Positions 6,197-40,506 of a DNA stretch of 64,000 nucleotides are shown one piece after another. Position 1 is the first letter of the stretch. Each line of letters begins with the position of its first letter. The notes below the pieces were generated by a model. That model was not told the origin of the DNA. It saw only the letters and a program-made list of their open reading frames with translations, and ran no database searches. The stretch is taken from positions 1 through 64,000 of the IMG/VR virus record IMGVR_UViG_3300044701_003160, one strand, 5' to 3'. The position numbers and the translations under genes are program-made. The stretch is from a virus.

Positions 6197-6224
6197 TAAA
6201 ACCCCACAGGGCGTCCTGCAGGGT
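6197..6224 (-). terminator. Rho-independent terminator of the glycan operon
   Basis: Minus strand: 10-bp stem (eight Watson-Crick pairs and two G-T) with an ACGC loop at 6201-6224, followed by a T-run. It lies 26 bases after the stop at 6250 and closes the late operon. Confidence 0.8.
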
Positions 6225-6249
6225 CTTGTGGCCAGTTTAGAAAGTGTCT

Positions 6250-9096
6250 TTAGTACATATCCTCATCCCATCTTTCTCCGCTTAAGTATTGTGCATCATA
6301 GGGGTAAGTATGGAAATTTCTCTTGGGGCAAGAAAGATCAATACCTGTTCTTGGGAAGGATTTAAATGCTAAAGGTAAAACAGATTTACTAACTTCGTAG
6401 GTTTCATTCCATTTTTCTGCATTATCATATAAGTATTTTTCTGGTTCAATTAGCATTCTTTTAATTCTATTATCAAATCTGGTACAGTAATGAGCACCGA
6501 TATAAGTCTCTGGTCTGGTTAAGAAGTTTGCATATTCTGCAAGTTCATACTTTCCAACTCTAACTTTGTCAATCAAACTATTATATTCTAGAGGAATATC
6601 AAAGAGGTATACTAAGTCTTCAGTTTTACCCCAAAAAATGTGATCTCTGGGATGAAAGACAAAGTTTGGAAATATTCCACCAACAAAGAGTTTATGATCG
6701 GTATGATTTTTTTTGAAGAAATCATACATCTTTACCATACTTTCTGTGGTATATTTCTGATCGGATCTCATTTTAGCTGCAAATTCAGTCTTGCATTCTT
6801 TAATCCCACATAAAGATGTAACAATTTGCAAGTTTTTGTTGCAAGTACCTGGAGTTGAAGGATATTTACTTCTTACAAATATTACATTATCATTATAATA
6901 TTTTTGTTGCTTATCATCTTCCCAACAAGAAACAATAATATTATTCACAAAGGGAAGTTTTAAATAATCTGAAATTATTTCGTCAGTATAATCATCATAT
7001 TGCCCCTGAAGAACAATATCAATCTTATCATTTTGTACTATATCAAATATTTCTACTTTCTCTTCTACTTTTGGATTGTCGTATGAAAAATAGATAATAA
7101 ATTGACCGAGATAAGTATTCTTCCAGTATTCTCTAAAGTCATACAGATATTGATCGTTAAAGATATCTTGTGTTACATCTTTTCCATTTCTTTCATAGAC
7201 GTGAAGATCTGAGCAATCTATTAGATAAAGATTACGAAATTCTATGAATTTTTCTACGGCATTATGGTGATCATTAATATGCCATTCTCCTGCACAATTT
7301 CTAACATTATTGCGAATGTACTCATAATTTTGTTTTGTGAAAATTGAATACTCTCCACCCTCACAATCAAACTTTAAGAAGTCAATCTTATTAATATTAT
7401 ATTCACTTATAATATTTTCAAATGTTGTAGTGCAGTAGGTATTTCCATTATGTTGGTAAATATATTCTCCACTCTCACCAATTATTTTTGATGATTCCTC
7501 TTTGTCACCAATTCCCTTGTTAATAATAGTAACTGGTCCATGGCCAATATTCTTTTTTAAGTACTCAACAATTGTATTTGAAGGTTCTACACAATAAACG
7601 TGTTTTGGATTTTTGTTTAATATAGAATATGTAAATGACCCACAGTTTGCTCCTGCATCAAAAACAATATCGCCTTCACTTACTTGATGATGCTTTTCAT
7701 AAGTTCTTTCAATAAAGTTCTCATTACTGAACATTTGAGCATATTCTGGATCTGTGGGCCCCCAATCAAAATTTGTTGGAACTAAAAAATCACTAAAATA
7801 ATTCTTTAAGTTGTTGAGAACAATATTTCTATGATCTTCACTCATATTATAGTTGTCAAGTAAATCTTTAAATAAGAGACCAGATTCTTCATTTTTACCC
7901 CACCACCATCCTGAAATTGCTTTCAGTAGTATCAATCCATATTTTCCTGGATACTCAACGTCACTCTCAAGTGGTTTGACATTAAAATCTGCGAATGTTA
8001 ATGCAGTATTTGCATAGATGTAACAATCTTGCCACTGATCTTTCTTTTCAGAGAATTTACCCAATAAGTAATATGCTTCTGGTCTATTCGGAAGTAGGCA
8101 AAGTGCTTGCTGCAGAATACCTTTCGCAGTTAAATCTCTTGTTCCTTGCTTATCATAACAATTAGATGCGTGAATTAATGCCTCATATGCAAAAGTATCA
8201 TCATCTGCTCTCTCCGCACAACGGAGAAAATAAGATAAAGCAGGTGATGAATGTCCTTCTTTCTCATACCAAAGACCCAAGGCAAAGTTTTTTTCTGCAT
8301 TTTCTGGATCTAATGCATATTCAATTAAAACTTCTTCAATATCAGTTTTTGTATTGTTATCTGGAATTCCCATAATTTTTTTCAGCGAAACTTTATTCTT
8401 GTTTTCTTTCCACCAGTTAACTACAAAGTCATAACTTTCGTTGTGGTAACCTTTTTGGCCATCAAATTCTTTAAATGTTGTAGGTATGTCAATATTTTCA
8501 ACAAACAATTCAATACTATAAACCTTTCCGTGCCCGAAAAATAAAACATTTTCTGGCATAGGAACAAAATTGCCAGGTATCGTAACATCATAGACATCAC
8601 CAAAAATATGTCTATCAATTATCTTCTTGGCATATTCTCTAGTGATAATATAAGCAGTAGCCGACCAGTCATCGTGAGATTTTTCTCTTAGTTCTATGTT
8701 TTGATAGAAGGGTCTTACAGTTGCTAGATGAACGCATTCCGCATCATCTGGAAGATTACTAATAAATTCTTCCCAAGTAAAATTCCAATATTTTACAAGT
8801 TCAAAACTTACATCATCCTCACAAAAGAATGCATAATCATCATCACATTCTTCGTACCATTTTTTAATTGCTTTAAGGTGAGAAATTATAGTTCCTCTAG
8901 TACCAGAATCTAAAGTATCTAATAGTTCTCCTGTAATTTTGTCATCACATTCAGAGAATCTTTTGGATATAATTGGATAAACTGAACTAATATTATATTC
9001 AGAAAATTGTTGTTGCAATAAGTTTTGCCTATCTACACTTTCCTCAAGAGAAATATAATAAACTTTAGGAAAGTGTTTTAATTTATTTGAAATCAT
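6250..9096 (-). CDS. Multidomain GT25 / TPR / FkbM methyltransferase / WavE-like protein, 948 aa
   Basis: Four domains are visible in order. Residues about 8-240: GT25 (LPS-type) glycosyltransferase with VYYISLEESVDRQ near the start and FFCEDDVSFE near residue 95. About 265-430: TPR-like helical repeats (FALGLWYEKEG, AYYLLGKFSEKK). About 478-660: FkbM-type SAM methyltransferase with VFDAGANCGSF and LKFDCEGGE. About 697-945: WavE-like LPS synthesis domain (IVLQGQYDD, AKMRSDQKY). Start chosen at the first ATG (9096); the longer frame would need TTG. It overlaps the epimerase gene by 14 bases and is the last gene of the operon. It probably transfers and methylates a sugar; acceptor unknown. Cytoplasmic. 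Confidence 0.85.
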   Translation of the reverse strand: MISNKLKHFPKVYYISLEESVDRQNLLQQQFSEYNISSVYPIISKRFSECDDKITGELLDTLDSGTRGTIISHLKAIKKWYEECDDDYAFFCEDDVSFELVKYWNFTWEEFISNLPDDAECVHLATVRPFYQNIELREKSHDDWSATAYIITREYAKKIIDRHIFGDVYDVTIPGNFVPMPENVLFFGHGKVYSIELFVENIDIPTTFKEFDGQKGYHNESYDFVVNWWKENKNKVSLKKIMGIPDNNTKTDIEEVLIEYALDPENAEKNFALGLWYEKEGHSSPALSYFLRCAERADDDTFAYEALIHASNCYDKQGTRDLTAKGILQQALCLLPNRPEAYYLLGKFSEKKDQWQDCYIYANTALTFADFNVKPLESDVEYPGKYGLILLKAISGWWWGKNEESGLLFKDLLDNYNMSEDHRNIVLNNLKNYFSDFLVPTNFDWGPTDPEYAQMFSNENFIERTYEKHHQVSEGDIVFDAGANCGSFTYSILNKNPKHVYCVEPSNTIVEYLKKNIGHGPVTIINKGIGDKEESSKIIGESGEYIYQHNGNTYCTTTFENIISEYNINKIDFLKFDCEGGEYSIFTKQNYEYIRNNVRNCAGEWHINDHHNAVEKFIEFRNLYLIDCSDLHVYERNGKDVTQDIFNDQYLYDFREYWKNTYLGQFIIYFSYDNPKVEEKVEIFDIVQNDKIDIVLQGQYDDYTDEIISDYLKLPFVNNIIVSCWEDDKQQKYYNDNVIFVRSKYPSTPGTCNKNLQIVTSLCGIKECKTEFAAKMRSDQKYTTESMVKMYDFFKKNHTDHKLFVGGIFPNFVFHPRDHIFWGKTEDLVYLFDIPLEYNSLIDKVRVGKYELAEYANFLTRPETYIGAHYCTRFDNRIKRMLIEPEKYLYDNAEKWNETYEVSKSVLPLAFKSFPRTGIDLSCPKRNFHTYPYDAQYLSGERWDEDMY

Positions 9097-10078
9097 TTTT
9101 AATTTGCACGGCAACTTGTTTAATCAAATCTTCAATATTTAAATTAGGTTTCCACTCAAGGATTTTTTGTGCTTTTTCAAAAGAACCAATAGATTTTCTA
9201 ATAGTCTCTTGCCTCACAGTTTCTTTATTTAGAGCATATTTGCCATCGAACAATTTTGGATATCTACTCCAAAGTTCCTCTGCGGGTTTATATGAAAGAG
9301 GTATGTGATTGCAATTTAGTGCTTCAGAAACCCATTTTCCAATTTGATTTACACTATAATTTAAACCAGTACAAACATTAAAAGTATCATTCGGTTTCTT
9401 TTTTAAACAAATTTCTATCATAGAAATAATATCTTCAACCCAAATAAAATCTCTGGTTTGAGTTCCATCACCACTTAAACAAGGAGATACTCCAGAAAGG
9501 AACTCTCTTACCAGAAAATTTACCAAAGGTGGATGAGTTCTACGATAATCTCCATCTGGACCAAAAACATTAAAGAACCGAAGAGTGGTAATTTGCATAT
9601 TGTAGTTTTCCCTGTAAGATTCTACAATATCTTCGGCCATCTTTTTTGAAGATGAATAGTATAACTTTGGATTTAACTCTAAGTTTTCTGTAAAAATATC
9701 TACTTCACAATTTTCATATACTGCACTCGTGCTGGAAAAAATAATATGAGGGATTTCGTGATTCTTAGCAAATTCTAAAATATTTGCAACACCACCAACA
9801 TTTGTCCAAATTGTTTCTAGTGGATTTATTTCACAATCTGGAAGTGATGTTATTGCTGCCAAATGAATGATAGCATCAAACTTTGAATCTAATAAAGCAA
9901 AGGGTTTTGAAATATCAATATTAAAAAATGGAGCAATTAACTCTCCATTTACCTCAAGGTTTGATTTGTATCCATTTCTGAGGCTATCAACTAAAACCAA
10001 ATCGTGTCCGTTTTCAATTAATCTTTTAGAGATACCACAACCAATCTGGCCAGCAGCACCTGTAACAAGTATCTTCAT
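9083..10078 (-). CDS. NAD-dependent nucleotide-sugar epimerase/dehydratase (extended SDR), 331 aa
   Basis: Classic extended short-chain dehydrogenase/reductase. The Rossmann motif VTGAAGQIGCGIS is at residues 5-17, DIS and HLAAITS in the cofactor site, and the catalytic YSSSK is near residue 140 with the upstream Ser in FSSTSAVY. C-terminal residues RDFIWVEDII are typical of UDP-glucose 4-epimerase-like enzymes. It interconverts a nucleotide sugar, most likely UDP- or dTDP-linked. The ATG overlaps the stop of the nucleotidyltransferase gene as ATGA (10075-10078), and its 3' end overlaps the giant glycosyltransferase gene. Confidence 0.9.
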   Translation of the reverse strand: MKILVTGAAGQIGCGISKRLIENGHDLVLVDSLRNGYKSNLEVNGELIAPFFNIDISKPFALLDSKFDAIIHLAAITSLPDCEINPLETIWTNVGGVANILEFAKNHEIPHIIFSSTSAVYENCEVDIFTENLELNPKLYYSSSKKMAEDIVESYRENYNMQITTLRFFNVFGPDGDYRRTHPPLVNFLVREFLSGVSPCLSGDGTQTRDFIWVEDIISMIEICLKKKPNDTFNVCTGLNYSVNQIGKWVSEALNCNHIPLSYKPAEELWSRYPKLFDGKYALNKETVRQETIRKSIGSFEKAQKILEWKPNLNIEDLIKQVAVQIKNDFK

Positions 10079-11133
10079 TCAAAAAACTCCTTTAGATTAT
10101 TTGCATTTCGTGGAATGTTGATGCCCTTGGCAGAAGGATATGGATTGCTTCTTGCAAAATCATTAATCACTACTCTCTGTGCGTGAGGTAATCCCATAAT
10201 CAGTTGATCATAAGGAATACCCTTCTCCTCCATTTCAAACACAGTAGTTTCCCTATGTTCTTCTGGTCTACTCGTTGTAAGAATAATCTTAACTTTACCA
10301 GAAGAATAAAGTTCATTTAGGTAATCTATATTCTCTTGTATTGCAGTTCCTTCTCCAACATAAGGTGGAAAATGAGTAGAAGAATTAGTCACCAAAGTTC
10401 CATCAATATCCACAAACAAACATTTATATTGTTTCTTATATGTATTCCAAGCATCTAGAGTTCCCCAATCCTTAAAGTTGGTTGTGGGCAATCCACGGAA
10501 AAGAGAACCAGAAAGTATCATTTCAAATATGATATGACTGACATAACATTCACCATCAATATCTGACAGTTTCTTATAGATCTCGCAGAATTCTAGAGCA
10601 CTTGCAAATCCATATCCACCAACAGAGAAAGTGGAACTAATCACCCTCTTCTCTACAATATTTGTAATGATATGGTTGATATCAAACTGCAAATAACTCT
10701 TGGTTTTTGCATTAATATTTTCCATATCATTCAGGTCAAAGTATGCAACCTGATTGATTGGTTCTGCAATCTCACACTCATAATATCCATCAGAGTCCTT
10801 GATGAATATGAATCCATCAATATTGGATTTATGAATGAGTTCACATACAGTTTCAGACTGTGATTTAGTTTGCTCGTCAAGAAATACGATATGAGACTTC
10901 TCCAGAAGACCTAGTTCATCCAGTTCGTGTGAGAAACCCTTATGAAATTGATATTTCTCTTCGTGTTGCTTTAAGCAAGCAAAGTAAATATCATCAAAGA
11001 ATTCTAGATTTAGTCCAAGTATTGATTCTATAGCCATAAAACGACCAGTCATCGGATGAGTAAGCATCCATTTTGGCCTCATATTTGGAAATCTAGATGA
11101 TTTCCCTGCCATAGGAACTATTAAAGTTCTCAT
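10075..11133 (-). CDS. Nucleotidyltransferase fused to HAD phosphatase, 352 aa
   Basis: Residues about 1-230 are a sugar- or choline-phosphate nucleotidyltransferase-like domain, with the N-terminal PMAGKSSRFPNMRPK (a G-x-G-x-R-F...PK variant). From about 235 there is a HAD domain starting FVDIDGTLV, with LTTSRP as motif II. The start at 11133 (MRTLIVPMAGKS) lies inside the end of the kinase gene, a 41-base overlap. Fusion with HAD and pairing with an APH kinase suggest phosphorylation then nucleotide activation of a small sugar, polyol or alcohol; the substrate is not evident. Confidence 0.8.
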   Translation of the reverse strand: MRTLIVPMAGKSSRFPNMRPKWMLTHPMTGRFMAIESILGLNLEFFDDIYFACLKQHEEKYQFHKGFSHELDELGLLEKSHIVFLDEQTKSQSETVCELIHKSNIDGFIFIKDSDGYYECEIAEPINQVAYFDLNDMENINAKTKSYLQFDINHIITNIVEKRVISSTFSVGGYGFASALEFCEIYKKLSDIDGECYVSHIIFEMILSGSLFRGLPTTNFKDWGTLDAWNTYKKQYKCLFVDIDGTLVTNSSTHFPPYVGEGTAIQENIDYLNELYSSGKVKIILTTSRPEEHRETTVFEMEEKGIPYDQLIMGLPHAQRVVINDFARSNPYPSAKGINIPRNANNLKEFFE

Positions 11134-11946
11134 ACAATTTTGTTGAAGATAAAATATTATCAAGTATAATTCCTTGATGTGAATTTGTCAAATATGGTTC
11201 TATTCTTAATATGTTAATAGTGTCAAGAACATCAAAACTTGAACTATGAATAAAATACTCGTACCTACTTTCCAGTTTCTCCCAAATGTATCTGTAAGTT
11301 TGAATAATACGAACAGAAGAAAGATTCTGAACCTTCAAACTCCAAAGATAATGTAAATCTTGTTTGATTTTTACAAGATCACATAGAAAACTATCCACAT
11401 AACAATCAAGAAAATCAATAAAGAACAAACGATTTGGATGAAAAAGGATATTGCTAAATGTCAAATCACCGTGACAAAATGTATTTGGAACAATTACTCG
11501 ATTTTCTTGAATTGAATTTTCTAGATAATCAATATAGTTTTTATGCGAACTATTTTCTTTGAGTGTTTGGATCTTACTTAAAACTTGATTAGTTACATCA
11601 ACCATCCTAAATCTGGATGAAAGATAATCAAAGTAACCAAAGAGAGTTTCAATTACAAAATCAATATTTTCTTTACTTGCAGAAGAAAAGAAATCATAAA
11701 AGGATAATCCCGGAACATATTCCATATCAAAAAAATATAAGTTCTCCTTGTTTACACTTAGAACTTTAGGAGTATCTATATTTTTTAATATTAAATTATA
11801 AAAAAAAATTGTTTATCTACTTGCTTTGATAATCTGAAATTATATTCAGAGGAAGATGAGTACTTACGAAGAGTACTATTGTCTAGAAGTTCTAGTTTGC
11901 ACCCAGACAATCCAGTATCAAATTGGTTTTTAATAATGTGCGTCAT
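11093..11946 (-). pseudogene. APH/choline-kinase-family kinase split by a -1 shift in a T9 run
   Basis: The gene starts with ATG at 11946, overlapping the previous TGA as ATGA, and reads MTHIIKNQFDTGLSGCKLEL as far as a run of nine T (11800-11808). Frame 0 then stops after six codons. One extra base restores a frame that continues FYNLILKNIDTPK into MEYVPGLSFYDFF and ends at 11093. The joined protein is 284 aa with the APH catalytic motif HGDLTFSNILF (about residue 159) and FIDFLD (metal-binding Asp). With one added base the length is exactly 285 codons. It could be a true frameshift mutation, a homopolymer sequencing error, or programmed -1 slippage on U9. Its place between glycan genes suggests it phosphorylates a sugar or alcohol. 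Confidence 0.8.
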
Positions 11947-13286
11947 TCTTTCATAAATTCTTCAATTGTTTGAGTGGAACCAATATTTCTCCACCAATTT
12001 AAATTATTATTATAAGATTCATAATGTGCCTTGTGAATTGGTTGTTTCTTTCCCTCTTCCGTATTTGGATCTAAATATGAAGGTAAGAAACTCAAATCCT
12101 CAGTAAACAAAGGAGCACCATAAACTTTACCTAATGGTGAGAATATAATTGTTTCAATCACAGGAATTTTTGCCCATTCGTCCCTAAGATGAACGTCACC
12201 GCCTTGGAGATTTAGATGAAACTTGCCGTCGTAATAGTATGCATCAATTAGTTTCTTTGCAAATTCTCTTTTAATAATATATGCACACCCAGACCAATCA
12301 CACCAGCAACGGTTTCTGAATCCAATTTTGAATGTATAAAATTCATATCTTAACCAAGCAAGTTGAACCATTTCCCAATCATTAGGAAGACTGTTATAGA
12401 AATCATCCCAAGTAAAGTTCCAGTATTGGACTAGTTCCATACTTAAATCATCTTCACAGAAGAAAGCAACTTCCTCTTCTGTATTATCATACCATTCTTT
12501 AATTGCCTTTAAGTGTGAAGTAACAGGGCCTCTGCTACCAATACTTAAGCGGTCAATATAATCACTTATAATTTTGTGTTGGGAATCATCATACTTCTGA
12601 AAGATATGCCCTGTGATATTCTCAATACCAAACTGAGAGAACTTTTGATGTAGTTTTTCTCTTCTTTCGGTACAGTAATCTACACTAATATAATGAACAG
12701 GAGGTAGATTCTTCAGTTTAGATGTATCTGGTTTATAGTGAATCCAGCACTTTTCTTCGGCAATAAAATCAGTCAGCAATTCGTTGACTGCCCGTTTAAC
12801 ACCAGGAAACCAATCATATTCTTCGTGATAATAATCGTGCCCTGCGAGTATTCCACCAGGTTTTACTTTAGGATACCAGGCAAGTATATCATCTCTCACA
12901 TCTTCGTATTCGTGTGAAGCATCAATAAAGACAAAATCGAGAGAGTTATCTTTAAATTTCTTTGCTGCTTCAAGAGAAGTCATCTTGAGAGGAAAATAAT
13001 ATTCTCCAACGGGTCTTAGATTATCAATAAAAATATCATAGAGTTTAGGCAACTCTTTCATTCCCTCGTGCTCTACACTTCCTTCCCAAGTATCTACACA
13101 AAAGAACTCAATATCTTTATTGGAATTAGCAATTTCAACGCACATATAGGCTGCCGATTTACCTTTCCAGCAACCAACTTCCACAAAACGACTTCCCGAA
13201 GGAAAGCGTTTTGCGATTCTGGAGTAAAGGTTGGGATAAGAAAACCAACCTTCACCAAAATTATCACTTCCGCAAATGTGTTCCAT
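11943..13286 (-). CDS. SAM methyltransferase fused to GT25 glycosyltransferase, 447 aa
   Basis: Residues about 10-190 are a class I methyltransferase of the CmcI/Methyltransf_24 type: FVEVGCWKGKSA near residue 35, FCVDTWEG, and FVFIDASHEYEDVRDD with KPGGILAGHDYY. Residues about 200-445 are a GT25-type glycosyltransferase: VHYISVDYCTERREKL, SRGPVTSHLKAIKEWYD, and FFCEDDLSMEL near 275. The second half resembles the N-terminal domain of the 6250-9096 protein, so the two are paralogous. Its ATG overlaps the upstream stop as TAATG (13284-13288) and its TGA overlaps the kinase ATG. Confidence 0.85.
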   Translation of the reverse strand: MEHICGSDNFGEGWFSYPNLYSRIAKRFPSGSRFVEVGCWKGKSAAYMCVEIANSNKDIEFFCVDTWEGSVEHEGMKELPKLYDIFIDNLRPVGEYYFPLKMTSLEAAKKFKDNSLDFVFIDASHEYEDVRDDILAWYPKVKPGGILAGHDYYHEEYDWFPGVKRAVNELLTDFIAEEKCWIHYKPDTSKLKNLPPVHYISVDYCTERREKLHQKFSQFGIENITGHIFQKYDDSQHKIISDYIDRLSIGSRGPVTSHLKAIKEWYDNTEEEVAFFCEDDLSMELVQYWNFTWDDFYNSLPNDWEMVQLAWLRYEFYTFKIGFRNRCWCDWSGCAYIIKREFAKKLIDAYYYDGKFHLNLQGGDVHLRDEWAKIPVIETIIFSPLGKVYGAPLFTEDLSFLPSYLDPNTEEGKKQPIHKAHYESYNNNLNWWRNIGSTQTIEEFMKE

Positions 13287-14920
13287 TATTTTAATTCAAG
13301 TAATACTGACTCTGGGTTTCCGTATAGTCTTCCGTCTACAGCAATCTTATGAGATGGAATGTATTTCTCAACTAATTCCGTCCAAGTTGAGGCCATTTCG
13401 TTATGAAATTCTATCGCAATATATTTAAAGTCCGCAAAACAAGTTGCATTTTCTAATAGATTTCTTTCACCACCTTCAATATCAATCTTAATAAAATCAT
13501 ATTTTGGAAGATTTTCTAATGTTGTTGTGGGAAGTTCGTTAAACTGAACTGTATGACTATCAGAATGCATATTATAACCACCCACATTTCCATCAGATTG
13601 CCCTAATGAAATTGTTTCTGCACCATAATACACAGCTTTGTTTATGACTTTAACTCTCCAATCATCTTTAAATCTATTTTGTATGTAATTATAATTTACA
13701 GGAACAGGTTCCATAATAACTGCTTCAGTCATCGTTGGAATTTTATCGAAGAATATTTTTACAACTTCTCCAGTACATCCCCCAACATCAAGAAATGATT
13801 TAATTTTTTTGTCTTTTAAGAAATCAATCACCGTTGCATAGAAAGGCATATTGGACCATTCAAGATTTGTATAATCCAAATGTCCGTCTAAAGTATCAGT
13901 TCCCCAATTTATTTGAGGTTCTATATTTTCAATTTGATTTATTACTCCTATGAAATTCAAAATAAAGTCTTTAGAAACTCTTACAAGATACGATGCATTA
14001 TCTTGAAAACCAAAGGTTATTAGAAAATCATTATTATATTCACACATTCCTACAGCAAATTCAATCTCACCATTTAAAAGTGAAAATTGTTCTGATACTT
14101 TTACAATATTCCAATTCTTATCCCATACAACAAACCGATGACGATATATTCCGTCTTTTCTTCCTGCAGGACTTTTTGTTAGATAAGTTTCGTGAAGTAA
14201 TGCAAATCTATAATCTCCCAGGGGAAGAACTTGAGAACCTCCACGAAGGTCTACACATCCCAAGTCTTTCCAATCACTTACACATACTCTATAAGTTTTA
14301 TTTGTTTGAATATCATATCTTACAATTTCAGTTCCATTTGTCCATTTCACATAATGATATGGAAGATCTAGAATGGGCATCCAATTCTTATTACAATACT
14401 CTAAAGTATCATCATCTCCTGGAATTGGAATACGATGTTGATTGATTTCTACTACACCATCTTCAGTAATCTCAAGTTCAGAAAGCTCCATACGACCAGT
14501 TCCAATTGGATCAAGGTCTCTTCTGACTCCAGTAATATACAACTTATCATCCCAACGAACGATACGAGCATCCTCTAATCCAACAAATTCCCAGAGTTCC
14601 TTATCTGGAAATCTAGAGGTATCAATAAGATTATGTCTTTTAATTCTCATATTTTCATCCATTTCGCACATATAATTCCAAGTGCGAAGATGCATATCAT
14701 TTTCTGGATGAATATACACCAGAGGACCCCAAGGGTGCTCGAACTTTTTCTTTTCAGAATGATATAAGGTGTAGTTAATGTTCCTTAAATTTACAAGAAT
14801 TTTACCGTTATCGTTGTAAATTGAAGGATTTGTGAGTGCAGGCCCCTTTAAATCTGATGAAGGAATAGTAAGAGGGTGAATACTGCCACCATTCTCCAAA
14901 GCAAGTTTGACGAAATTCAT
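13286..14920 (-). CDS. GH130-like propeller domain fused to FkbM methyltransferase, 544 aa
   Basis: Residues about 15-330 look like a five-bladed glycosidase/phosphorylase-type propeller: FVGLEDARIVRWDDKLYITG near residue 113 matches the GxEDxR signature of GH130-like proteins. Residues about 350-544 are an FkbM-type methyltransferase with SFLDVGGCTGEV (about 378) and FIKIDIEGGERNLL (about 478). It likely binds or processes a mannoside-like glycan and methylates it, though the carbohydrate is not evident. It is the first gene of the operon, 24 bases behind the late motif AATAAATA (14945-14952). Confidence 0.8.
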   Translation of the reverse strand: MNFVKLALENGGSIHPLTIPSSDLKGPALTNPSIYNDNGKILVNLRNINYTLYHSEKKKFEHPWGPLVYIHPENDMHLRTWNYMCEMDENMRIKRHNLIDTSRFPDKELWEFVGLEDARIVRWDDKLYITGVRRDLDPIGTGRMELSELEITEDGVVEINQHRIPIPGDDDTLEYCNKNWMPILDLPYHYVKWTNGTEIVRYDIQTNKTYRVCVSDWKDLGCVDLRGGSQVLPLGDYRFALLHETYLTKSPAGRKDGIYRHRFVVWDKNWNIVKVSEQFSLLNGEIEFAVGMCEYNNDFLITFGFQDNASYLVRVSKDFILNFIGVINQIENIEPQINWGTDTLDGHLDYTNLEWSNMPFYATVIDFLKDKKIKSFLDVGGCTGEVVKIFFDKIPTMTEAVIMEPVPVNYNYIQNRFKDDWRVKVINKAVYYGAETISLGQSDGNVGGYNMHSDSHTVQFNELPTTTLENLPKYDFIKIDIEGGERNLLENATCFADFKYIAIEFHNEMASTWTELVEKYIPSHKIAVDGRLYGNPESVLLELK

Positions 14921-14944
14921 AAAAGCATTATGTGTTCTTGAGAG

Positions 14945-14952
14945 TATTTATT
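14945..14952 (-). promoter_or_regulatory. Late promoter motif AATAAATA
   Basis: T4-type late promoter core on the minus strand, 24 bases before the ATG at 14920. It overlaps the TAA stop of the preceding fibre gene. It would put the six-gene glycan operon under late control. Confidence 0.6.
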
Positions 14953-16576
14953 ATCCCAACTGAGTAACCAAAACGTTTAAACTGGTTACTGTTACTGGAT
15001 CAGTACTTTCAAGATTTGAAATGTGAACTTCTACGTAGTCATTTAAAATGTGTTTGTGAACATCAGTAATGTGGACAACAGTAGGAGTTCCTGCAAGTAC
15101 CTCAAAATCTAATGTAGATGCTTCTAAAATTGCATTACCATTTGAACTATCAAAAATTGCAATACTACAGGTAGTGCTTGTATCTGAAAGAACAGTTGCA
15201 GAAACTTGAGTAAGATATTCACGTTCGATGCCTGCATTACAAGTTAAACGGTTATCAGTATGTGTAAATTTAGAGTTCGTTGCTCCAGTAGTTGTAGTAA
15301 CACCCACAACTTTTACATAAGTATCAGTCGAATCAAAGGTTGTTTGAGTAGCATTATTCTTCATATAATACTGACCGATTACAAAACTATTATCAATACC
15401 ACGATTTCTCTCAAAGAAAGCATCTCTGTTGTCTATATCAGTATGAGTACTGATACCAAGTTTTGTTCCTGGACCAGAGAAATTGCAAGTCTGCAGAATA
15501 AAACTTTCAGGTTGAGCGAAATTTACACCATCTTGAACTGTAATTCCAGTATATCCAGAAGGAACAATAAAGGAACAAACGGTAACACGAATACGACGAG
15601 TAGATATAAAAGTACTTGGAAAATTCAGAATAGATTTTGTACCACCAAGTCCAAAGTTTCCACTAAACAAGCACTGGTTAAATCCTACTGTTCCTGTAGT
15701 ACCATCAAAAGTTAAGTCCTGTGAGTTTAGAAATGCACCATCAAGCAAAATAAAGTTATTATAACTTGAGATAATTCCTACCCTTACACAATTGGTAAAG
15801 TTTACTCCAAACCAATCAAGTGCGTGAACTGAAGGAATAGATGCTTGAAGATTAATTGCAAAAGGTGCTTCTAATGTAATGCTTCTCATCGGAAGAGAAT
15901 AAACACTACTCAAAAGAGCAACATCAGTCGCAATACCTGTGGATTTAATTCTGCAGTTCTCGGATGAACCACCAAGAATTGTGGTGTTATCTCCAGCAAC
16001 TAAACGATTTCCTTGTAAATCTACAGTCGTTGTGAAAAAGTAGGTATAATTGTCTTTGAGAGTGATTACTCCATCTACTGCACTTGGAAGGTCGTTTGTA
16101 CTTCCAACAAAAATAAAGTTTACAACATCATCAAGAAACTTAAATTGAGTTTCACCACCACCACCAATCGTAGCCATTTGTTGTTGGATACGATTAATGA
16201 AGAGTTGATAATGGTCGTTAAGTTGTTGAATAGTTACAAAGTTCTGGTCTAGTGGTGTAAGTGGATCGCCGTTCTTTATATTTGGTGGTTCATTTAACAG
16301 ACCTTCATTTAGTTGCTTTCTTTGTTGTGGAATTGGATTATTCTTAAGTTGCTGACGAAGCTCATACACTTCATCGTGCTGATTTACAACTAAATTCTGT
16401 AAAAAATCAATATTCTCTGTAAGTTGTTGAGTTTGTTCTTTTAATTTATCAACTTCTGTTTTTTTCTGCTCTGCCTCATACTCTTCAAAAGTTCTTTTCT
16501 TACCCGAAGAACTTTTAGGTGTTTCCGTCTTTGATGACGAACCAATATGATGTAGGATTTTAGAATATCTATTCAT
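14951..16576 (-). CDS. Fibre protein: coiled coil plus right-handed beta-helix, 541 aa
   Basis: Residues about 25-75 form a coiled coil rich in Glu, Lys and Gln. From about 150 to 430 the sequence is pectate-lyase-like beta-helix (AVDGVITLKDNYTYFFT, ILGGSSENCRIKSTG, VNFTNCVRVGIISS, LNSQDLTFDGTTG), typical of phage fibres and tailspikes. The last 100 residues form a beta-rich tip. No catalytic residues could be identified. It sits between the Tfa-like gene and the glycan operon, behind TATAAATA at 16593-16600. Probably a trimeric tail-fibre or spike protein that contacts host glycans. Confidence 0.75.
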   Translation of the reverse strand: MNRYSKILHHIGSSSKTETPKSSSGKKRTFEEYEAEQKKTEVDKLKEQTQQLTENIDFLQNLVVNQHDEVYELRQQLKNNPIPQQRKQLNEGLLNEPPNIKNGDPLTPLDQNFVTIQQLNDHYQLFINRIQQQMATIGGGGETQFKFLDDVVNFIFVGSTNDLPSAVDGVITLKDNYTYFFTTTVDLQGNRLVAGDNTTILGGSSENCRIKSTGIATDVALLSSVYSLPMRSITLEAPFAINLQASIPSVHALDWFGVNFTNCVRVGIISSYNNFILLDGAFLNSQDLTFDGTTGTVGFNQCLFSGNFGLGGTKSILNFPSTFISTRRIRVTVCSFIVPSGYTGITVQDGVNFAQPESFILQTCNFSGPGTKLGISTHTDIDNRDAFFERNRGIDNSFVIGQYYMKNNATQTTFDSTDTYVKVVGVTTTTGATNSKFTHTDNRLTCNAGIEREYLTQVSATVLSDTSTTCSIAIFDSSNGNAILEASTLDFEVLAGTPTVVHITDVHKHILNDYVEVHISNLESTDPVTVTSLNVLVTQLG

Positions 16577-33367: not shown

Positions 33368-33375
33368 TATTTATG
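33368..33375 (-). promoter_or_regulatory. Late promoter motif CATAAATA
   Basis: Minus strand, 25 bases before the ATG at 33342. The TAA stop of the oxygenase gene at 33371 is part of the motif. Confidence 0.6.
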
Positions 33376-34030
33376 GAACCTTAATTCCATACTTCTGTTC
33401 TATTTCTCTATCTTGTTCTTCTTTTGTTTTGAATCCTTGAACTCTCATCCAAGTTACAAGAGTGTATCTTTTACCAGAAAGTACAGGTTCAACACAGTGC
33501 TTAAAGTATCTTGAGGAAGGAAAACAAACAAGAAGGCCTGGTTCTGGTTTAATGGTGACTCTTAAATCTGGAAATGTAAAATATCCACCATCAAAATCAT
33601 TATTGAGAAAAAGAACCGTAGAAAGATCACGATCTACACTCTTCTTCCACATTTGAGTTCCATCGGGATTCGTCCAAAGTGCTTCTGCATCATAGTGAGG
33701 TTTATAGTGCCCTCCTTTTTCATAGTAAAGAAGTTGAGGCATTTCACTATCACGAATTTTAAAATTATAAAAAGGATTGATAACGTGGTCAATAATGTTT
33801 GTCATCAGGTCGTGAATTTGAGGAAGTATCGGTGTTACATCAGCACACTTTACATCTCTGGATGTTTTATCTACCTTATGTTCTTGTTGCTTTGTAAGAT
33901 TAGTTTTATCGGGGTCAAACACACCCATCTGTTCCATTTCTGCACTATTTGCATAATCAATCAGATATTTACAGTTTTCTTTCGTGACTACTTTTGGTTG
34001 AATTAAAATATTGGATAATAAATCATTCAT
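33371..34030 (-). CDS. Prolyl 4-hydroxylase-like 2OG/Fe(II) oxygenase, 219 aa
   Basis: Closely fits the P4H family: LLYYEKGGHYKPHYD with His112 and Asp114, STVLFLNNDFDGGYFTFPD, PEPGLLVCFPSS, distal His178 and Arg188 (the 2-oxoglutarate anchor) in KHCVEPVLSGKRY. P4H-type phage enzymes are common in cyanophages. It lies just downstream of an 18-blade kelch protein whose repeats are rich in Pro (STPTPKLSQ), a plausible substrate by position; this is inference. Late motif CTAAATA at 34053-34059. Confidence 0.9.
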   Translation of the reverse strand: MNDLLSNILIQPKVVTKENCKYLIDYANSAEMEQMGVFDPDKTNLTKQQEHKVDKTSRDVKCADVTPILPQIHDLMTNIIDHVINPFYNFKIRDSEMPQLLYYEKGGHYKPHYDAEALWTNPDGTQMWKKSVDRDLSTVLFLNNDFDGGYFTFPDLRVTIKPEPGLLVCFPSSRYFKHCVEPVLSGKRYTLVTWMRVQGFKTKEEQDREIEQKYGIKVP

Positions 34031-34059: not shown

Positions 34060-36842
34060 TTTGCGTTTGAGACTGCTGCTAAACCACTTCTTGCTTGAGA
34101 TAACTTAGGTGTTGGAGTTGTTATGGTTTCTGTTGAAAAATCTAGACGGTCTATAGTACAAACAAGAGTAGGACCACCACCACCAAAGTAACCATAAGAA
34201 CTACTTGAGGTTGCTGCTAAATTTTGTCTTGCTTGAGATAATGTAGGTGTTGGAGTTGTTATGGTTTCTGTTGAGAAATCTAAACGGTCTATGGTGGAAA
34301 CAACAGTAGGAGTACCACCACCACCAAAGTAACCATAATTGGTACTTTGGACTGCTGCTAAATTTTGTCTTGCTTGAGATAATGTAGGTGTTGGTGTTGC
34401 TACGGTTTCTGTAGAGAAATCTAAACGGTCTATAGTACAAACAAGAGTAGGAGTACCACCACCACCAAAGTAACCATAAGAACTACTTGAGGCTGCTGCT
34501 AATCCACCTCTTGCTTGAGATAATTTAGGTGTTGGAGTACTTACGGTTTCTGTTGAGAAATCTAAGCGATTTATAATAGAAACACGAGTAGGAGTACTAC
34601 CACCACCAAAGTAACCATAAGAACTACTTGAGGTTGCTGTTAGGAAATTTCTTGCTTGAGATAACTTAGGTGTTGGTACTGATACTGTTTCTGTAGAGAA
34701 ATCTAGACGATCTATGGTACAAACAAAAAGGGGAGTACTAGTCAAACCACCACCAAAGTAACCATAAGAACTACTTGAGGTTGCTGCTAATAATTGTCTT
34801 CCTTGAGATAACTTAGGTGTTGGAGTTGTTATGGTTTCTATAGAGAAATCCAAGCGGTCTATTGTGGAACTATCTGTAGGAACGGCACCACCACCAAAGT
34901 ATCCATAAGTAGCAGAACCAACTCTACGAGTTCCTGTTGCTCCTGATGTTGCTGCTAAACTAGATTTTGCTTGAGATAACTTAGGTGTTGGTGTTGTTAC
35001 GGTTTCTGTAGAGAAATCTAGACGGTCTATGGTGGAAACACGAGTAGCAGGAGGAGTAAAATAACCACCACCAAAGTAACCATAAGAACTACTTGAGACT
35101 GCTGCTAAACCACTTCTCGCTGAAGATAACTTGGGTGTTGGGACTGTTACTGTTTCTGTAGAGAAATCTAAGCGATCTATGGTACAAACACGAGTAGCAG
35201 GAGGAACAAGACCACCACCGAAATAACCATAAGAACTATTTGAGACTGCTGCTAATTCTTGTCTTGCTTGAGATAACTTAGGTGTTGGTGTTGTTCTTGT
35301 TTCTGTGGAAAAATCTAAACGGTCTATGGTGCAAACACCAATACTAGCGTCGGGCCCTCCACCTGCAAAGTAACCATAAGAACTACTTGAGACTGCTGCT
35401 AAACCATCTCTTGCTTGAGATAATTGATAGGTTCCTGGTGTTGATCTAGTTTCTGTAGAGAAATCTAGACGGTCTATGGTACAAACACGAGTAGCAGGAG
35501 GAATAAGGCCACCACCAAAATAACCATAAGAACTACTTGAGACTGCTGCTAATTCTTCTCTGCCTTGAGATAACTTAGGTGTTGGTACTGATACAGTTTC
35601 TGTGGAGAAATCTAAGCGATCTATGGTACAAACACGAGTAGCAGGAGGAACAAGACCACCACCGAAATAACCATAAGAACTATTTGAGACTGCTGCTAAT
35701 TCTTGTCTTGCTTGAGATAACTTAGGTGCTGGAGTACTTATGGTTTCTGTGGAGAAATCTAAACGGTCTATGGTAGAAACAAAAGTAGGAGTAGCACCAC
35801 CAGCAAAGTAACCAGTAGTAGCACTCTCGGGCCAGTTGGTGAACTTAGGTGAACTTCTAAAGGTTTTAGGTTTATTAATTTGTGTTGCACCGGAACCTAT
35901 TCTTGCTACAGATAAATCGGGCCCTGGAGTTGTTACGGTTTCTGTAGAGAAATCTAAACGGTCTATGATAGAAATAATAGTAGGAGTAGAAGTTTCACCA
36001 CCAGCAAAGTAACCATAAGAGTTACTTGAAGTACCTGCTGCAGAAGATTTTGATGCAGATAACTTAGGTGTTGGTGTTGTTCTAGTTTCTGTAGTAAAAT
36101 CTAGGCGATCTATGGTAGAAACAACAGCAGGAGTAGGAATAATACCACCACCAAAGTAACCATAACTATCATTTTCTACAGATTCTAAAGTTGATTTTGC
36201 TTGAGATAACTGATAAGTTCCTGGTGTTGCTCTGGTTTCTGTAGATAAATCTAGACGGTCTATAGTGCAAACAAAAGTAGTTGGGGCACTAGCACCACCA
36301 GCAAAGTAACCATAAGAACTATTTGATACTGACGTTAAATTTCTTCTTGATGATGATAACTTGGCTGCTATGACTGGAGATTGTATGGTTTCTGTAGAAA
36401 AATCTAAACGATCAATTGTGGAATAAAAGGTGCTAACAGGAAGGACAGCATAACCACCACCAAAATATCCATATAAATTAGTTGCGACTGCTGATGTTCC
36501 TCTTTTTGCTGCAGAAAGATTAGAAACTGCAGCCGTTTCAGTTTCCGTAGAAAATTCTAAGCGATCAATAGTAGAAATATCTCCACCAGCAGTGATTCCC
36601 CCAGCAAAATAAGCATAAAAATTATTTGTTGCAACACCAAAGTTAGTTTTTAAAATTGGGGAAGTTGAGGCTGTTACGACTTCTGTAGTAAAATCTAAAC
36701 GGTCAATTACACAAGTAGTACCAGGTTCTGCACCTGCGACATAATATCCATAGAGAGCCGAAGGAGTGTTTACGTCAAAACTTTCATTAATATTTGCAAT
36801 TTGTTCTGTTCTAACTTCTCTAAGTGAAAATATTCCAGACAT
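34056..36842 (-). CDS. Kelch-like protein with 18 blades (3 x 6), 928 aa
   Basis: Eighteen repeats of about 48 residues: SSSYGYFGGGxxPTxVCTID, RLDFSTETVSTPTPKLSQAR, then xxLAAV. The GG pair, the [IV]DRLDF strand and the PxLSxAR segment fit kelch beta-propeller blades. A distinct linker (FTNWPESATTGYFAGG) begins blade 7 and another (SGATGTRRVGSATYG) begins blade 13, dividing the protein into three sets of six. The N-terminus MSGIFSLREVRTEQ is shared in pattern with the other two kelch genes. Probably a virion surface fibre. Its ATG overlaps the sulfotransferase stop as TAATG. Confidence 0.85.
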   Translation of the reverse strand: MSGIFSLREVRTEQIANINESFDVNTPSALYGYYVAGAEPGTTCVIDRLDFTTEVVTASTSPILKTNFGVATNNFYAYFAGGITAGGDISTIDRLEFSTETETAAVSNLSAAKRGTSAVATNLYGYFGGGYAVLPVSTFYSTIDRLDFSTETIQSPVIAAKLSSSRRNLTSVSNSSYGYFAGGASAPTTFVCTIDRLDLSTETRATPGTYQLSQAKSTLESVENDSYGYFGGGIIPTPAVVSTIDRLDFTTETRTTPTPKLSASKSSAAGTSSNSYGYFAGGETSTPTIISIIDRLDFSTETVTTPGPDLSVARIGSGATQINKPKTFRSSPKFTNWPESATTGYFAGGATPTFVSTIDRLDFSTETISTPAPKLSQARQELAAVSNSSYGYFGGGLVPPATRVCTIDRLDFSTETVSVPTPKLSQGREELAAVSSSSYGYFGGGLIPPATRVCTIDRLDFSTETRSTPGTYQLSQARDGLAAVSSSSYGYFAGGGPDASIGVCTIDRLDFSTETRTTPTPKLSQARQELAAVSNSSYGYFGGGLVPPATRVCTIDRLDFSTETVTVPTPKLSSARSGLAAVSSSSYGYFGGGYFTPPATRVSTIDRLDFSTETVTTPTPKLSQAKSSLAATSGATGTRRVGSATYGYFGGGAVPTDSSTIDRLDFSIETITTPTPKLSQGRQLLAATSSSSYGYFGGGLTSTPLFVCTIDRLDFSTETVSVPTPKLSQARNFLTATSSSSYGYFGGGSTPTRVSIINRLDFSTETVSTPTPKLSQARGGLAAASSSSYGYFGGGGTPTLVCTIDRLDFSTETVATPTPTLSQARQNLAAVQSTNYGYFGGGGTPTVVSTIDRLDFSTETITTPTPTLSQARQNLAATSSSSYGYFGGGGPTLVCTIDRLDFSTETITTPTPKLSQARSGLAAVSNAN
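35161..35284 (-). repeat. 124-bp perfect repeat, copy A
   Basis: Identical base for base to 35605-35728; covers the variable part of one kelch blade and the start of the next, so it is not just the conserved core. Confidence 0.85.
35605..35728 (-). repeat. 124-bp perfect repeat, copy B
   Basis: Identical to 35161-35284; blades 8 and 11 of the same gene carry the same variable loop (LVPPATRVC). Confidence 0.85.
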
Positions 36843-37669
36843 TAGATTCCAAATACAGAGTACTTCGGAGTTAGTTGTCGCCAGAACTCCATTTCTTTAT
36901 ATTTATCCATAATATACTTACTAAGATACTTTGAATTATCTCTGTGTATTTTTTCAACTTTATTTCTGACAGTATGCATATTCTCAAGGCCATAAACCAC
37001 ATCATTCTCATCAAACTTTGGTTTTACATTTGAAAAATCATAAGAATACTCAGGTATTCTTAGAAATGAATGAATACGATTAAGTTCTCTTTGAGGATTG
37101 GAAATTAAATCCTCATATTCTACAAATAACAAATATCTCTGATGACTCTTACGAAATGCTTCTGTAAGTGCGTGATAAGATTGACATATAATACCACTTG
37201 GAGACATTAGAAAATCACATCGATTATCATTTGTAAGTTCTAAGTTTCTTTCTACGAGAGCTTTATCAACAAAAGATGTTGTTTTACTGCGTTCAATTAA
37301 AGAAAGAAAAGAAACCATAATGTCCTGAATGTTTCTTACAGGACAAATGATCTTTGGTTCTGGAGTGATGTAATCTTTGATGTGTTGTATTTGATTCACC
37401 CAACCTCTTGACTTATCAATAATAATCGGTTCTGGTGTATCAAAGTAATAGTTATGAGGTATGGATGATAAAACTCTATGTGCTGCTTCTGGTTTTGGAT
37501 GTGCTTTATATTGCTCTGAGTTATATAACAAATACTCCTCAGTATAATGTATTGTATCTAAAAGAGGAGAGTTTGTAGATGCGTGTATCTGAGGATTTTG
37601 ATTCAGAAGTGCAGTCAGAAGTGTCGAACCAGATCTTGGAAGACCTGAAAGAAAGTGAAAGGTTTTCAT
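36842..37669 (-). CDS. PAPS-dependent sulfotransferase-like protein, 275 aa
   Basis: Start chosen at the ATG at 37669 because the family begins MKTFHFLSGLPRSGSTLLTA; the frame opens 18 codons earlier inside the previous gene. LPRSGSTLL is the 5'-phosphosulfate-binding loop, and PVRNIQDIMVSFLSL (about residue 108) fits the 3'-phosphate site. The remainder matches small bacterial sulfotransferases in length. It would transfer sulfate from PAPS to a hydroxyl on a sugar, Tyr or other acceptor. It lies between two kelch genes, so these Tyr/Ser-rich proteins or attached glycans are candidate targets (inference). Confidence 0.85.
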   Translation of the reverse strand: MKTFHFLSGLPRSGSTLLTALLNQNPQIHASTNSPLLDTIHYTEEYLLYNSEQYKAHPKPEAAHRVLSSIPHNYYFDTPEPIIIDKSRGWVNQIQHIKDYITPEPKIICPVRNIQDIMVSFLSLIERSKTTSFVDKALVERNLELTNDNRCDFLMSPSGIICQSYHALTEAFRKSHQRYLLFVEYEDLISNPQRELNRIHSFLRIPEYSYDFSNVKPKFDENDVVYGLENMHTVRNKVEKIHRDNSKYLSKYIMDKYKEMEFWRQLTPKYSVFGI

Positions 37670-37686
37670 AATATAGGTTTTTGGGA

Positions 37687-37693
37687 TATTTAG
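37687..37693 (-). promoter_or_regulatory. Late promoter motif CTAAATA
   Basis: Minus strand, 17 bases before the ATG at 37669; the TAA stop of the kelch gene (37690-37692) is inside it. Confidence 0.55.
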
Positions 37694-40506
37694 TTTGAGT
37701 TTGAGACTGCTACTGGTCCCCATCTTTCTGCAACAAGTTTTTGTGCCGGTACTGATGTGGTTTCTGTAGAGAAATCTATACGATCTATAGTAGAAACAGT
37801 AACAGGACCAGAAATAAGACCACCACCAAAGTAACCATAAGAACTACTTGAGGTTGCTGCTAAATCACTTCTTGATGAAGATAACTTAGGTGTTGGTGTT
37901 GTTACGGTTTCTGTAGAGAAATCTAGACGGTCTATGGTAGACACAGTAGCACCACCAGCAAAGTAACCATAAGAACTACTTGAGGTTGCTTGTAAAGCAG
38001 ATTTTGCTTGTGATAACTGATAGGTTCCTGGCGATGTTATAGTTTCAGTAGTGAAGTCTAAGCGATCTATGGTGCAAACAGAAGGAGGAAGATTACCGCC
38101 ACCAAAGTAACCATAAGAACTACTTGAGGTTGCCGTTAAATTTTCTCTTGCCTGAGATAATTTAGGTGTTGGTGTACTTACAGTTTCTGTAGAGAAATCT
38201 AGACGATCTACAGTGCTAATAATACCAGGAGCAGGAGCACCAGGAGCATAACCACTACCAAAGTAACCATAAGAACTACTTGAGGTTGCTGATAATTTCC
38301 ATTTTTCTAGAGATAACTTAGGTGTTGGTGTACTTACAGTTTCTGTAGAGAAATCTAGACGATCTATGGTAGAATAAAATCCAGAAGAGAATCCCCCACC
38401 ACCAAAGTAACCATAAGAACTACTTGAAGTTGCTGATAATTTCCATTTTACTGCAGACAACTTAGGTGATGGTGTTGTAATAGTTTCTGTAGAGAAATCT
38501 AGACGGTTTATTGTACTAGTTCCAGCAGCTGCAAATCCACCTACAAAATATCCAGCAGTTGCAGAACCAACTCTACGAGTTCCTGTTGCTCCTGATGTTG
38601 CTGCTAAGTTATCTCTTATTTGAGATAACTTAGGTGCTGGAGTACTTACGGTCTCTGTGGAGAAATCTAAACGGTCTATAGTGCAAACACGAACAGTAGG
38701 AGTATAACCACCACCAAAGTAACCATAAGAACTACTTGAAGCTGCTGCTAAACTAGATCTTGCTTGAGATAACTTAGGTGTTGGAGTACTTCTGGTTTCT
38801 GTAGAAAAATCTAGGCGATCTATGATGCAATAATTACCACGAGGAGGTGTCTGGCCACCACCAAAGTAACCATAAGAACTACTTGAGACTGCTGCTAAAC
38901 TCTCTCTTGCTGTAGATAACTTAGGTGTTGGTACTGATACGGTTTCTGTGGAGAAGTCTAGACGGTCTATAGTACAAAAAACATCAGTAGAAGCAAAACC
39001 ACCACCAAAGTAACCATAAGAACTACTTGAGACTGCTGCTAAACCACTTCTTGCTTGAGATAACTTAGGTGTTGGAGTACTTATGGTTTCTGTTGAAAAA
39101 TCTAAACGATCTATGGTACAAACACGAGTAGGAACAGTAACAGAACCACCACCAAAGTAACCATAAGAACTACTTGAGGTTGCTGATAATTCACCTCTTG
39201 CTACAGGTAAGTTAGGTGTTGGTGCTATTACTGTTTCTGTTGAGAAATCTAGACGATCTATAGTGGAATAAAAAGTAGAAGGAGGATTAAGACCACCAAC
39301 AAAATAACCATAAGAACTACTTGAGACTGCTGCCAAACTTTGTCTTGATTGAGATAACTTAGGTGCTGGAGTACTTATGGTTTCTGTGGAGAAATCTAAA
39401 CGGTCTATGGTAGAAACAAAAGTAGGAGCAGCACCGCCACCACCAAAGTAACCAGCAGTAGAACTCTCAGGCCAATTGGTAAACTTAGGAGAAAGTTGAA
39501 AAATTGGATTGCGATTGATTTGAGTTGCTGCTAATCCACCTCTTGCTTGAGATAATTTAGGTGTTGGAGTACTTACGGTTTCTGTGGAAAAATCTAGACG
39601 ATCTATGGTGGTAATATAAGTACTAGCAGCAGAAGAACCACCACCAAAGTAACCATAAGAGCTACTTGAGACTGCTGCTAAATTATCTCTTGCTTGAGAT
39701 AACTTAGGTGTTGGAGTACTTACGGTTTCTGTAGAAAAATCTAGGCGATCTATGGTAGTAACAAAAGCAGGAGTAGAAGTTTCACCACCAGCAAAGTAAC
39801 CATAAGAACTACTTGAGGTTGCTGATATATCTTCTCTTGCTTGAGATAACTGATAAGTTCCTGGAGTTGTTCTGGTCTCTGTGGAGAAATCTAAACGGTC
39901 TATGGTACAAACAATAGCGGGAGTAGGAATAAGTCCCCCACCAAAATAACCATAAGAACTATTCGAAACTGCTGCTAATCCAACTTTTGCTTGAGATAAC
40001 TGATAGGTTCCTGGTGTTGATCTAGTTTCTGTAGAGAAATCTAAACGGTCAATGGTACAAACACGGGCAGGAGTAGGAGTAAGACCACCCGCAAAATAAC
40101 CATAAGAACTACTTGAGACTGCTGCCAAACTTTGTTTTGCTTCAGATAACTGATATGTTCCTGGAGTTGCTACGGTTTCTGATGAGAAATCTAAACGGTC
40201 TATGGTGCAAAATCTAATCGTGATTGGAGAAAAAAGTCCACCAGCAAAGTAACCATAATTGGTACTTTGGACTGCTGCTAAATTACTTCTTGCTAGAGAT
40301 AACTGATAGGTTGCTGGAGTTGTTCTGGTTTCTGTAGTGAAATCTAAACGGTCAATAGTCGTATAAAATGCAAGTGGTACTGGACCAATACCACCACCAC
40401 CAAAGTAACCATAAAGACGACCAGAAATATTCAGGTTTAGACCCGATGTTGTATTACTAACTTGTAGATCATAAACACGATCTAAACCGAATACGTCTCC
40501 TTGCAT
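37690..40506 (-). CDS. Kelch-like protein with 18 blades (3 x 6), 938 aa
   Basis: Eighteen kelch-type blades as in the 34056-36842 gene. Blade 7 starts after a linker with SPKFTNWPESSTAGYFGGGG; blade 13 after SGATGTRRVGSATAGYF. The N-terminus is MQGDVFGLDRVYDLQ. Variable loops after the GGG (for example GPVPLAFYT, SAASTYITT) differ between blades while the framework is nearly constant, as expected for a surface scaffold with variable loops. It shares a 119-bp perfect stretch with the third kelch gene. Confidence 0.85.
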   Translation of the reverse strand: MQGDVFGLDRVYDLQVSNTTSGLNLNISGRLYGYFGGGGIGPVPLAFYTTIDRLDFTTETRTTPATYQLSLARSNLAAVQSTNYGYFAGGLFSPITIRFCTIDRLDFSSETVATPGTYQLSEAKQSLAAVSSSSYGYFAGGLTPTPARVCTIDRLDFSTETRSTPGTYQLSQAKVGLAAVSNSSYGYFGGGLIPTPAIVCTIDRLDFSTETRTTPGTYQLSQAREDISATSSSSYGYFAGGETSTPAFVTTIDRLDFSTETVSTPTPKLSQARDNLAAVSSSSYGYFGGGSSAASTYITTIDRLDFSTETVSTPTPKLSQARGGLAATQINRNPIFQLSPKFTNWPESSTAGYFGGGGAAPTFVSTIDRLDFSTETISTPAPKLSQSRQSLAAVSSSSYGYFVGGLNPPSTFYSTIDRLDFSTETVIAPTPNLPVARGELSATSSSSYGYFGGGSVTVPTRVCTIDRLDFSTETISTPTPKLSQARSGLAAVSSSSYGYFGGGFASTDVFCTIDRLDFSTETVSVPTPKLSTARESLAAVSSSSYGYFGGGQTPPRGNYCIIDRLDFSTETRSTPTPKLSQARSSLAAASSSSYGYFGGGYTPTVRVCTIDRLDFSTETVSTPAPKLSQIRDNLAATSGATGTRRVGSATAGYFVGGFAAAGTSTINRLDFSTETITTPSPKLSAVKWKLSATSSSSYGYFGGGGFSSGFYSTIDRLDFSTETVSTPTPKLSLEKWKLSATSSSSYGYFGSGYAPGAPAPGIISTVDRLDFSTETVSTPTPKLSQARENLTATSSSSYGYFGGGNLPPSVCTIDRLDFTTETITSPGTYQLSQAKSALQATSSSSYGYFAGGATVSTIDRLDFSTETVTTPTPKLSSSRSDLAATSSSSYGYFGGGLISGPVTVSTIDRIDFSTETTSVPAQKLVAERWGPVAVSNSN
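38957..39075 (-). repeat. 119-bp perfect inter-gene repeat, copy A
   Basis: Identical to 43489-43607, 4.5 kb away in another kelch gene. It includes the variable loop FASTDVFC, so shared ancestry by copying rather than framework conservation is likely. Confidence 0.85.

Follow-up and report, generated by a model that had tools for sequence, protein, structure and literature searches.

A late-type glycan operon behind a cyanophage fibre gene, read as one allele of a widespread cassette with constant ends and an exchangeable middle

The operon described here lies in a 64,000-nucleotide stretch of viral DNA (IMG/VR virus record IMGVR_UViG_3300044701_003160, positions 1 to 64,000; called the window below), and the virus is a cyanophage, since its genome contains psbA/psbD-like genes. 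The operon was confirmed as five intact minus-strand genes and one broken kinase frame with one late-type promoter and one terminator (Table 1), and is best read as an allele of a hypervariable glycan cassette that is widespread among cyanophages and related large phages. The gene overlaps are exact, with TAATG at 13286, ATGA at 11943-11946, 41 bases at 11133/11093, ATGA at 10075-10078, and 14 bases at 9096/9083. An earlier interpretation made without database searches (the sequence-only reading) had described six genes in this layout; the order, strand, and overlaps stand, but the third gene does not form a single open reading frame. Neither a DNA match to the whole operon nor the six-gene set was found in phage records.

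Table 1. Position of the operon and its features in the window (aa, amino acids; nt, nucleotides).
Feature	Position	Strand	Basis
Preceding fibre gene	14951-16576	minus	phrog_28263 tail fibre, 7.5e-5; gene stop overlaps promoter motif
Late-type promoter motif AATAAATA	14945-14952	minus	25 nt 5' of first ATG (14920)
Gene 1 (14920-13286, 544 aa), GH130/GT108-like beta-propeller domain, residues 1-329	13934-14920	minus	Fold, invariant residues
Gene 1, FkbM methyltransferase domain	13286-13933	minus	PF05050, E 4e-5
Gene 2, Methyltransf_24 + GT25, 447 aa	11943-13286	minus	PF13578, 3.9e-22; phrog_2835, 3.3e-36
Gene 3, APH-type kinase, frameshifted, 854 nt	11093-11946	minus	Pfam APH; length not a multiple of three
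Nine-T run, one-base frameshift site in gene 3	11800-11808	minus	Frame-0 stop TAA at 11793-11791
Gene 4, nucleotidyltransferase + HAD phosphatase fusion, 352 aa	10075-11133	minus	4evw profile match, 1.1e-7
Gene 5, SDR nucleotide-sugar epimerase/dehydratase, 331 aa	9083-10078	minus	PF01370, 3.4e-48
Three-gene module, kinase-nucleotidyltransferase/HAD-SDR	9083-11946	minus	Absent at the cassette site in L090, L099, L101
Gene 6, GT25 + TPR + FkbM + WavE fusion, 948 aa from ATG 9096	6250-9096	minus	Pfam, PHROGs
Terminator-like intrinsic hairpin	6198-6227	minus	13-pair stem, then TTTT; z = -2.42

The late-type promoter lies where the sequence-only reading had placed it and adjoins the fibre gene. 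The known late promoter of cyanomyoviruses, NATAAATA, as defined in PMC2984593, is located shortly 5' of the first gene, at a spacing of 25 nt, as in T4-type late genes. The window contains 15 copies of NATAAATA on the minus strand and 2 on the plus strand, compared with approximately 12 expected per strand, a total that is not above chance. Nine of the 15 minus-strand copies are placed 17-60 nt 5' of gene starts, where a rough estimate from site density gives approximately 0.4. Across the whole window, the copies show a strong strand bias toward minus. A consensus scan of the operon for internal sigma-70 promoters gave 61 hits versus 54 in shuffled sequences, which is not above background, and no internal promoters are therefore claimed. 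A terminator had also been predicted at the end of the operon, and a hairpin was indeed found there; 3 of 200 shuffled sequences fold equally well in a shuffling test, and the hairpin is not among the sites listed by a consensus terminator scan. We regard it as credible but not strong.

The first gene fuses a beta-propeller to an FkbM methyltransferase domain. FkbM passes the Pfam cut-off, while the GH130-like propeller proposed by the sequence-only reading falls below it (12 bits versus 26 for PF04041) and is backed instead by its fold and by invariant residues. PF04041 matches were obtained in 7 of the propellers from 20 relatives (best E 1.4e-4). A phmmer search of PDB with gene 1 gave no match, and a profile of the propeller domain retrieved only a single chance antibody match from PDB. 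The structure of the domain was predicted with a pLDDT of 82.6 (AF2), and the best PDB matches of the model in Foldseek are Leishmania MPT-4 (GT108) and GH130 enzymes, including phosphorylases. The top 28 matches are GH130/GT108 entries or putative glycosidases (TM ~0.5-0.66, E 1e-8 to 3e-6), with sequence identities of 11-15% to most of the best ones. The predicted structure places the modelled domain in the GH130/GT108 fold group. Similar folds are found in proteins from Pithovirus, Solivirus, and Indivirus, some of which are annotated as sugar transferases.

Residues N31, E116, D117, and D307 do not vary among 20 sequences of the propeller domain. In the GH130 enzyme Teth514_1788, the residues Asn28, Glu91, Asp92, and Asp281 have been reported, of which Asn28, Asp92, and Asp281 form the mannose -1 subsite (PMC4264767). 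The two sets have the same order and a similar spacing, as compared by sequence positions. The domain resembles the GH130 beta-mannoside phosphorylases and the GT108 mannosyltransferase-phosphorylases, which have a five-bladed propeller, in its predicted fold. Judged by order and spacing, it also has invariant putative counterparts of the Asn/Asp/Asp mannose subsite. It differs from them in its score below the Pfam cut-off, in its fusion to FkbM, and in its biosynthetic genomic context.

For genes 2, 4, 5, and 6, the domains named previously are supported by Pfam, PHROGs, profile, and fold searches, and the large enzyme fusions are conserved in relatives. The Pfam cut-offs are passed by FkbM in the first and last genes, Methyltransf_24, APH, SDR, and WavE. 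GT25 is just under the cut-off in Pfam (23.9 versus 24) but strong in PHROGs (phrog_2835, 3e-36 and 5e-44), and gene 2 contains an EDD motif at residue 278. Gene 4, which has no match in PDB by phmmer, matches the fold of 4evw in Foldseek (9.2e-15), followed by inositol-phosphate and sugar-phosphate nucleotidyltransferases, and has 44 relatives in IMG/VR. Gene 5 matches the UDP-glucose 4-epimerase 4zrm in PDB (2e-32) and contains the motifs GAAGQIG and YSSSK. To call the operon a nearly complete glycan pathway, as had been done, is too strong, since the donor sugars of the glycosyltransferases are not made by the operon, and a second sugar cluster is located at ~99.8-112.6 kb. This cluster (~99799-112590 in the genome, G000; 1800-14591 in L165) encodes a dTDP-sugar epimerase, several SDRs, GT25, GT11, Methyltransf_24, and a cytidylyltransferase-like protein. 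It is adjoined by an SLH + OprB porin gene for a cyanobacterial-type outer-membrane porin (98229-99710 in G000; 230-1711 in L165, minus strand).

At least 593 virus-contig stretches carry the GH130-like gene, mostly at the head of a cassette whose last gene encodes a TPR protein. In 82 of the 99 GH130-like loci examined, a TPR gene follows downstream on the same strand after 0-6 intervening genes, and this constant last gene usually carries GT25 fused ahead of TPR. When 65 distinct cassettes were clustered at 50% identity, all first genes fell into a single cluster and the 67 middle genes into 33. The middle genes include GT2, GT7C, GT11, GT17, GT47, FkbM, an aminotransferase, and a hexapeptide transferase. 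Of the 332 locus pairs whose first genes are 75% or more identical, 280 have no middle gene in common; these pairs are not independent events, because the contigs overlap in origin and duplicates were removed only by identical first genes. The ends of the cassette are common to scores of related viruses, and the middle is exchanged from virus to virus. In bacterial O-antigen loci, the flanking genes are constant and the sugar genes in the middle are exchanged. The cassette shares this layout, with homologous ends and non-homologous middles in relatives, but the present operon is phage-borne and lacks a flippase and a polymerase.

All six genes occur together, in the same order and with the same fusions, only in the close relatives L009 and L010/L011, as seen in a domain map of the relatives. 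Three further loci (L090, L099, and L101) have kept genes 1, 2, and 6 without the trio of kinase, nucleotidyltransferase/HAD, and SDR genes, and have a short spacer at the junction. In the L101 genome (G007, 234 kb), the trio is located elsewhere: its nucleotidyltransferase gene lies at 26 kb, whereas the GH130-like gene is found at 228 kb. The same two genes are tens of kilobases apart in G024-G027. Because the trio is absent from the site in some relatives and present elsewhere in the L101 genome, it is a mobile module, which either entered the operon in one lineage or left it in others. The sequence-only reading had treated the six genes as one co-inherited system, to be abandoned if the same genes were lost in relatives. 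This is largely what was found, as the trio is missing as a unit and most middles differ.

The kinase-nucleotidyltransferase/HAD unit, often together with the SDR gene, is present in approximately 40 virus loci, most of which have further SDR genes nearby. The 41-base overlap between the kinase and the nucleotidyltransferase is kept in L008 and even in AG-345-E15. The pair is also present in bacterial loci from Bacteroidota, Paenibacillus, Azospirillum, and others, several of which adjoin glycosyltransferase-like genes, as read by eye from protein starts. Heptose, choline, and polyol activation pathways were considered for the trio and not adopted, as substrate-level support was lacking.

The sequence GGATAATAAATACTCTCAAGAAC is also present 5' of the homologous gene in L010 and L131. 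Among 76 distinct regions, the GH130-like gene is preceded by NATAAATA in 19 (5.1 expected) and by a sigma-70-like pair in 24 (4.7 expected). The late motif was not found before the last gene (0 of 63), nor before the nucleotidyltransferase or the kinase. Since promoter motifs are located at the head and no late motif precedes these genes, the cassette seems to be a single unit driven from its head. In L009 and L090, the cassette head combines a late motif with a sigma-70-like promoter. Late expression, as proposed in the sequence-only reading, seems plausible for the phage studied and for some relatives, but it is not general, because the cassette heads of the relatives are late or sigma-70-like and the promoter class thus differs between phages.

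The cassette most likely decorates the tail fibres with a glycan, to which we assign a probability of approximately 0.5. The late promoter would start the operon together with the fibre genes, and the constant GH130/GT108-like propeller would probably add or trim a beta-mannosyl-type residue. Between the constant ends lie interchangeable genes for transferases, methyltransferases, and sugar activation; the trio would convert a small sugar or polyol to its phosphate and then to an NDP-derivative, followed by oxidation or epimerisation. These soluble enzymes would assemble a methylated glycan on an acceptor in the cytoplasm. The fibre proteins encoded next to the operon are the most likely acceptor, with the TPR domain perhaps holding the fibre. 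FlmG of Caulobacter is a TPR-glycosyltransferase protein that modifies a cytoplasmic filament protein (PMC7591256). It is soluble and combines TPR with a glycosyltransferase, like gene 6, and may serve as a model for acceptor binding, but TPR is N-terminal and the glycosyltransferase C-terminal in FlmG, whereas GT25 precedes TPR in gene 6 (PMC7591256). The upstream neighbours in several relatives match tail-fibre or collagen-like PHROGs, and in the cultured phage DSL-LC02 the GH130-like/TPR pair is located between collagen-like and tail-fibre genes. We tentatively suggest, at clearly less than even odds, that the fibre-linked cassette acts as a serotype locus, in which the GH130/GT108-like and TPR-transferase ends stay constant and the exchangeable middle would give each lineage its own fibre glycan coat, with activation modules shuttling between the locus and the second sugar cluster.

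Several observations weigh against fibre decoration. The upstream neighbour is a UDP-glucose dehydrogenase in L120 and a protein without a match in L064, neither being a fibre; the sigma-70-like head promoters of many relatives fit an earlier expression; and the kinase frame is broken in the assembly. Moreover, the authors of a pelagimyophage survey favour host O-chain modification for such genes (PMC7029224).

The serious rival, which we hold to be less likely, is that the cassette modifies the lipopolysaccharide (LPS) or capsule of the host envelope during infection, which would exclude competitor phages or prevent the binding of progeny to debris. This is consistent with that published view of the host recognition cluster, with a second, LPS-like sugar cluster in the same phage, and with the Pfam descriptions of GT25, WavE, GT11, and GT2, which are best known from LPS synthesis. 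The excess of sigma-70-like head promoters (24 of 76 relatives) also suits envelope modification. Against it stand the late promoter and the fibre-gene neighbours of the operon in the phage studied, and late expression would leave little time for envelope rebuilding. The operon contains no flippase, polymerase, ligase, or membrane protein, which also argues for fibre decoration rather than a remodelled envelope. None of the five intact proteins has a hydrophobic segment above 1.2 on the Kyte-Doolittle scale (19 residues), and thus no membrane export step is encoded by the operon proteins.

The third gene had been read as an APH-type kinase, and the break of its frame at the nine-T run had gone unnoticed. 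The first frame comprises 51 codons and ends at the stop just past the run, and the remainder of the kinase, including the HGDLTFSN and DFLD motifs, is encoded in another frame. At this site, the kinase genes of L009 and L010 have one additional base and an open frame, and the frame is also open in the other loci read. Part of the operon might accordingly be decaying, with the kinase a pseudogene and the three-gene module non-functional in the phage studied. We consider this improbable: 3' of the shift, the kinase differs from that of L009 by a non-synonymous divergence (dN) of 0.07 and a synonymous divergence (dS) of 0.60, and its catalytic motifs are conserved, which shows purifying selection; the site is a homopolymer in a single-contig assembly; and slippage on nine U residues could restore the frame. 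Because the downstream part evolves under constraint, the frameshift either arose by mutation very recently, was introduced by the assembly, or marks a slippage site. No strains of the same species that cover the frameshift were found in IMG/VR. Programmed recoding at the nine-T run is possible, as slippage would yield the sequence of the relatives, but it is not favoured, since no relative has the frameshift. That the glycan genes are mere passengers or filler for headful packaging with no set function, a stuffer idea that has been put forward for the LPS clusters of cyanophages (PMC3037559), is highly improbable given the low dN/dS in the nucleotidyltransferase (0.021/0.373) and the kinase, the conserved overlaps, including the 41 bases in L008, and the conserved head promoters.

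Such phages are already known to carry LPS clusters as well as glycan genes next to fibres. The host recognition cluster of pelagimyophages and cyanomyophages is likewise a hypervariable fibre region with interspersed glycosyltransferases, but the available part of its description mentions no constant-ended cassette with a GH130-like first and a TPR last gene, unlike the present locus (PMC7029224). Phage-borne sugar-nucleotide and glycosyltransferase genes are also present in the LPS clusters of P-SSM2, S-SSM7, and S-SM2, which are located near hli03 or phoH and tRNAs and are not stated to form a late operon behind a fibre gene (PMC3037559). The mycobacteriophages Che8 and Rita have virions with glycans and encode glycosyltransferases; the target there is the capsid and few genes are involved, whereas here a multi-gene cassette is located beside fibres and the target is putative (cited in PMC11256854). 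Neither a cassette with constant ends and a variable middle nor a mobile activation module was found described in the literature outside subscription journals. So far, the glycosyltransferases encoded next to fibre genes in cyanophages and related phages have been read as host LPS modifiers or as filler. A cassette whose ends are invariant and whose middle is allelic offers a concrete, testable alternative, namely variable virion decoration. Two cultured Synechococcus phages, DSL-LC02 and S-SCSM2R, carry the GH130-like/TPR pair, and the virion question can therefore be approached on purified virions now.

Elsewhere in the window, two 2OG-Fe(II) oxygenases (33371-34030 and 45647-46225) are encoded among collagen-like (GxQ) fibre genes and could hydroxylate fibres before glycosylation. 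A sulfotransferase, a GT4-FkbM fusion, and a weak GT8-like gene (36842-37723, 41436-43094, and 44988-45650) are located between long fibre-like repeat proteins. The window also encodes a Mom-family protein (55531-56163; Pfam 5.5e-20), a possible DNA-modification enzyme.

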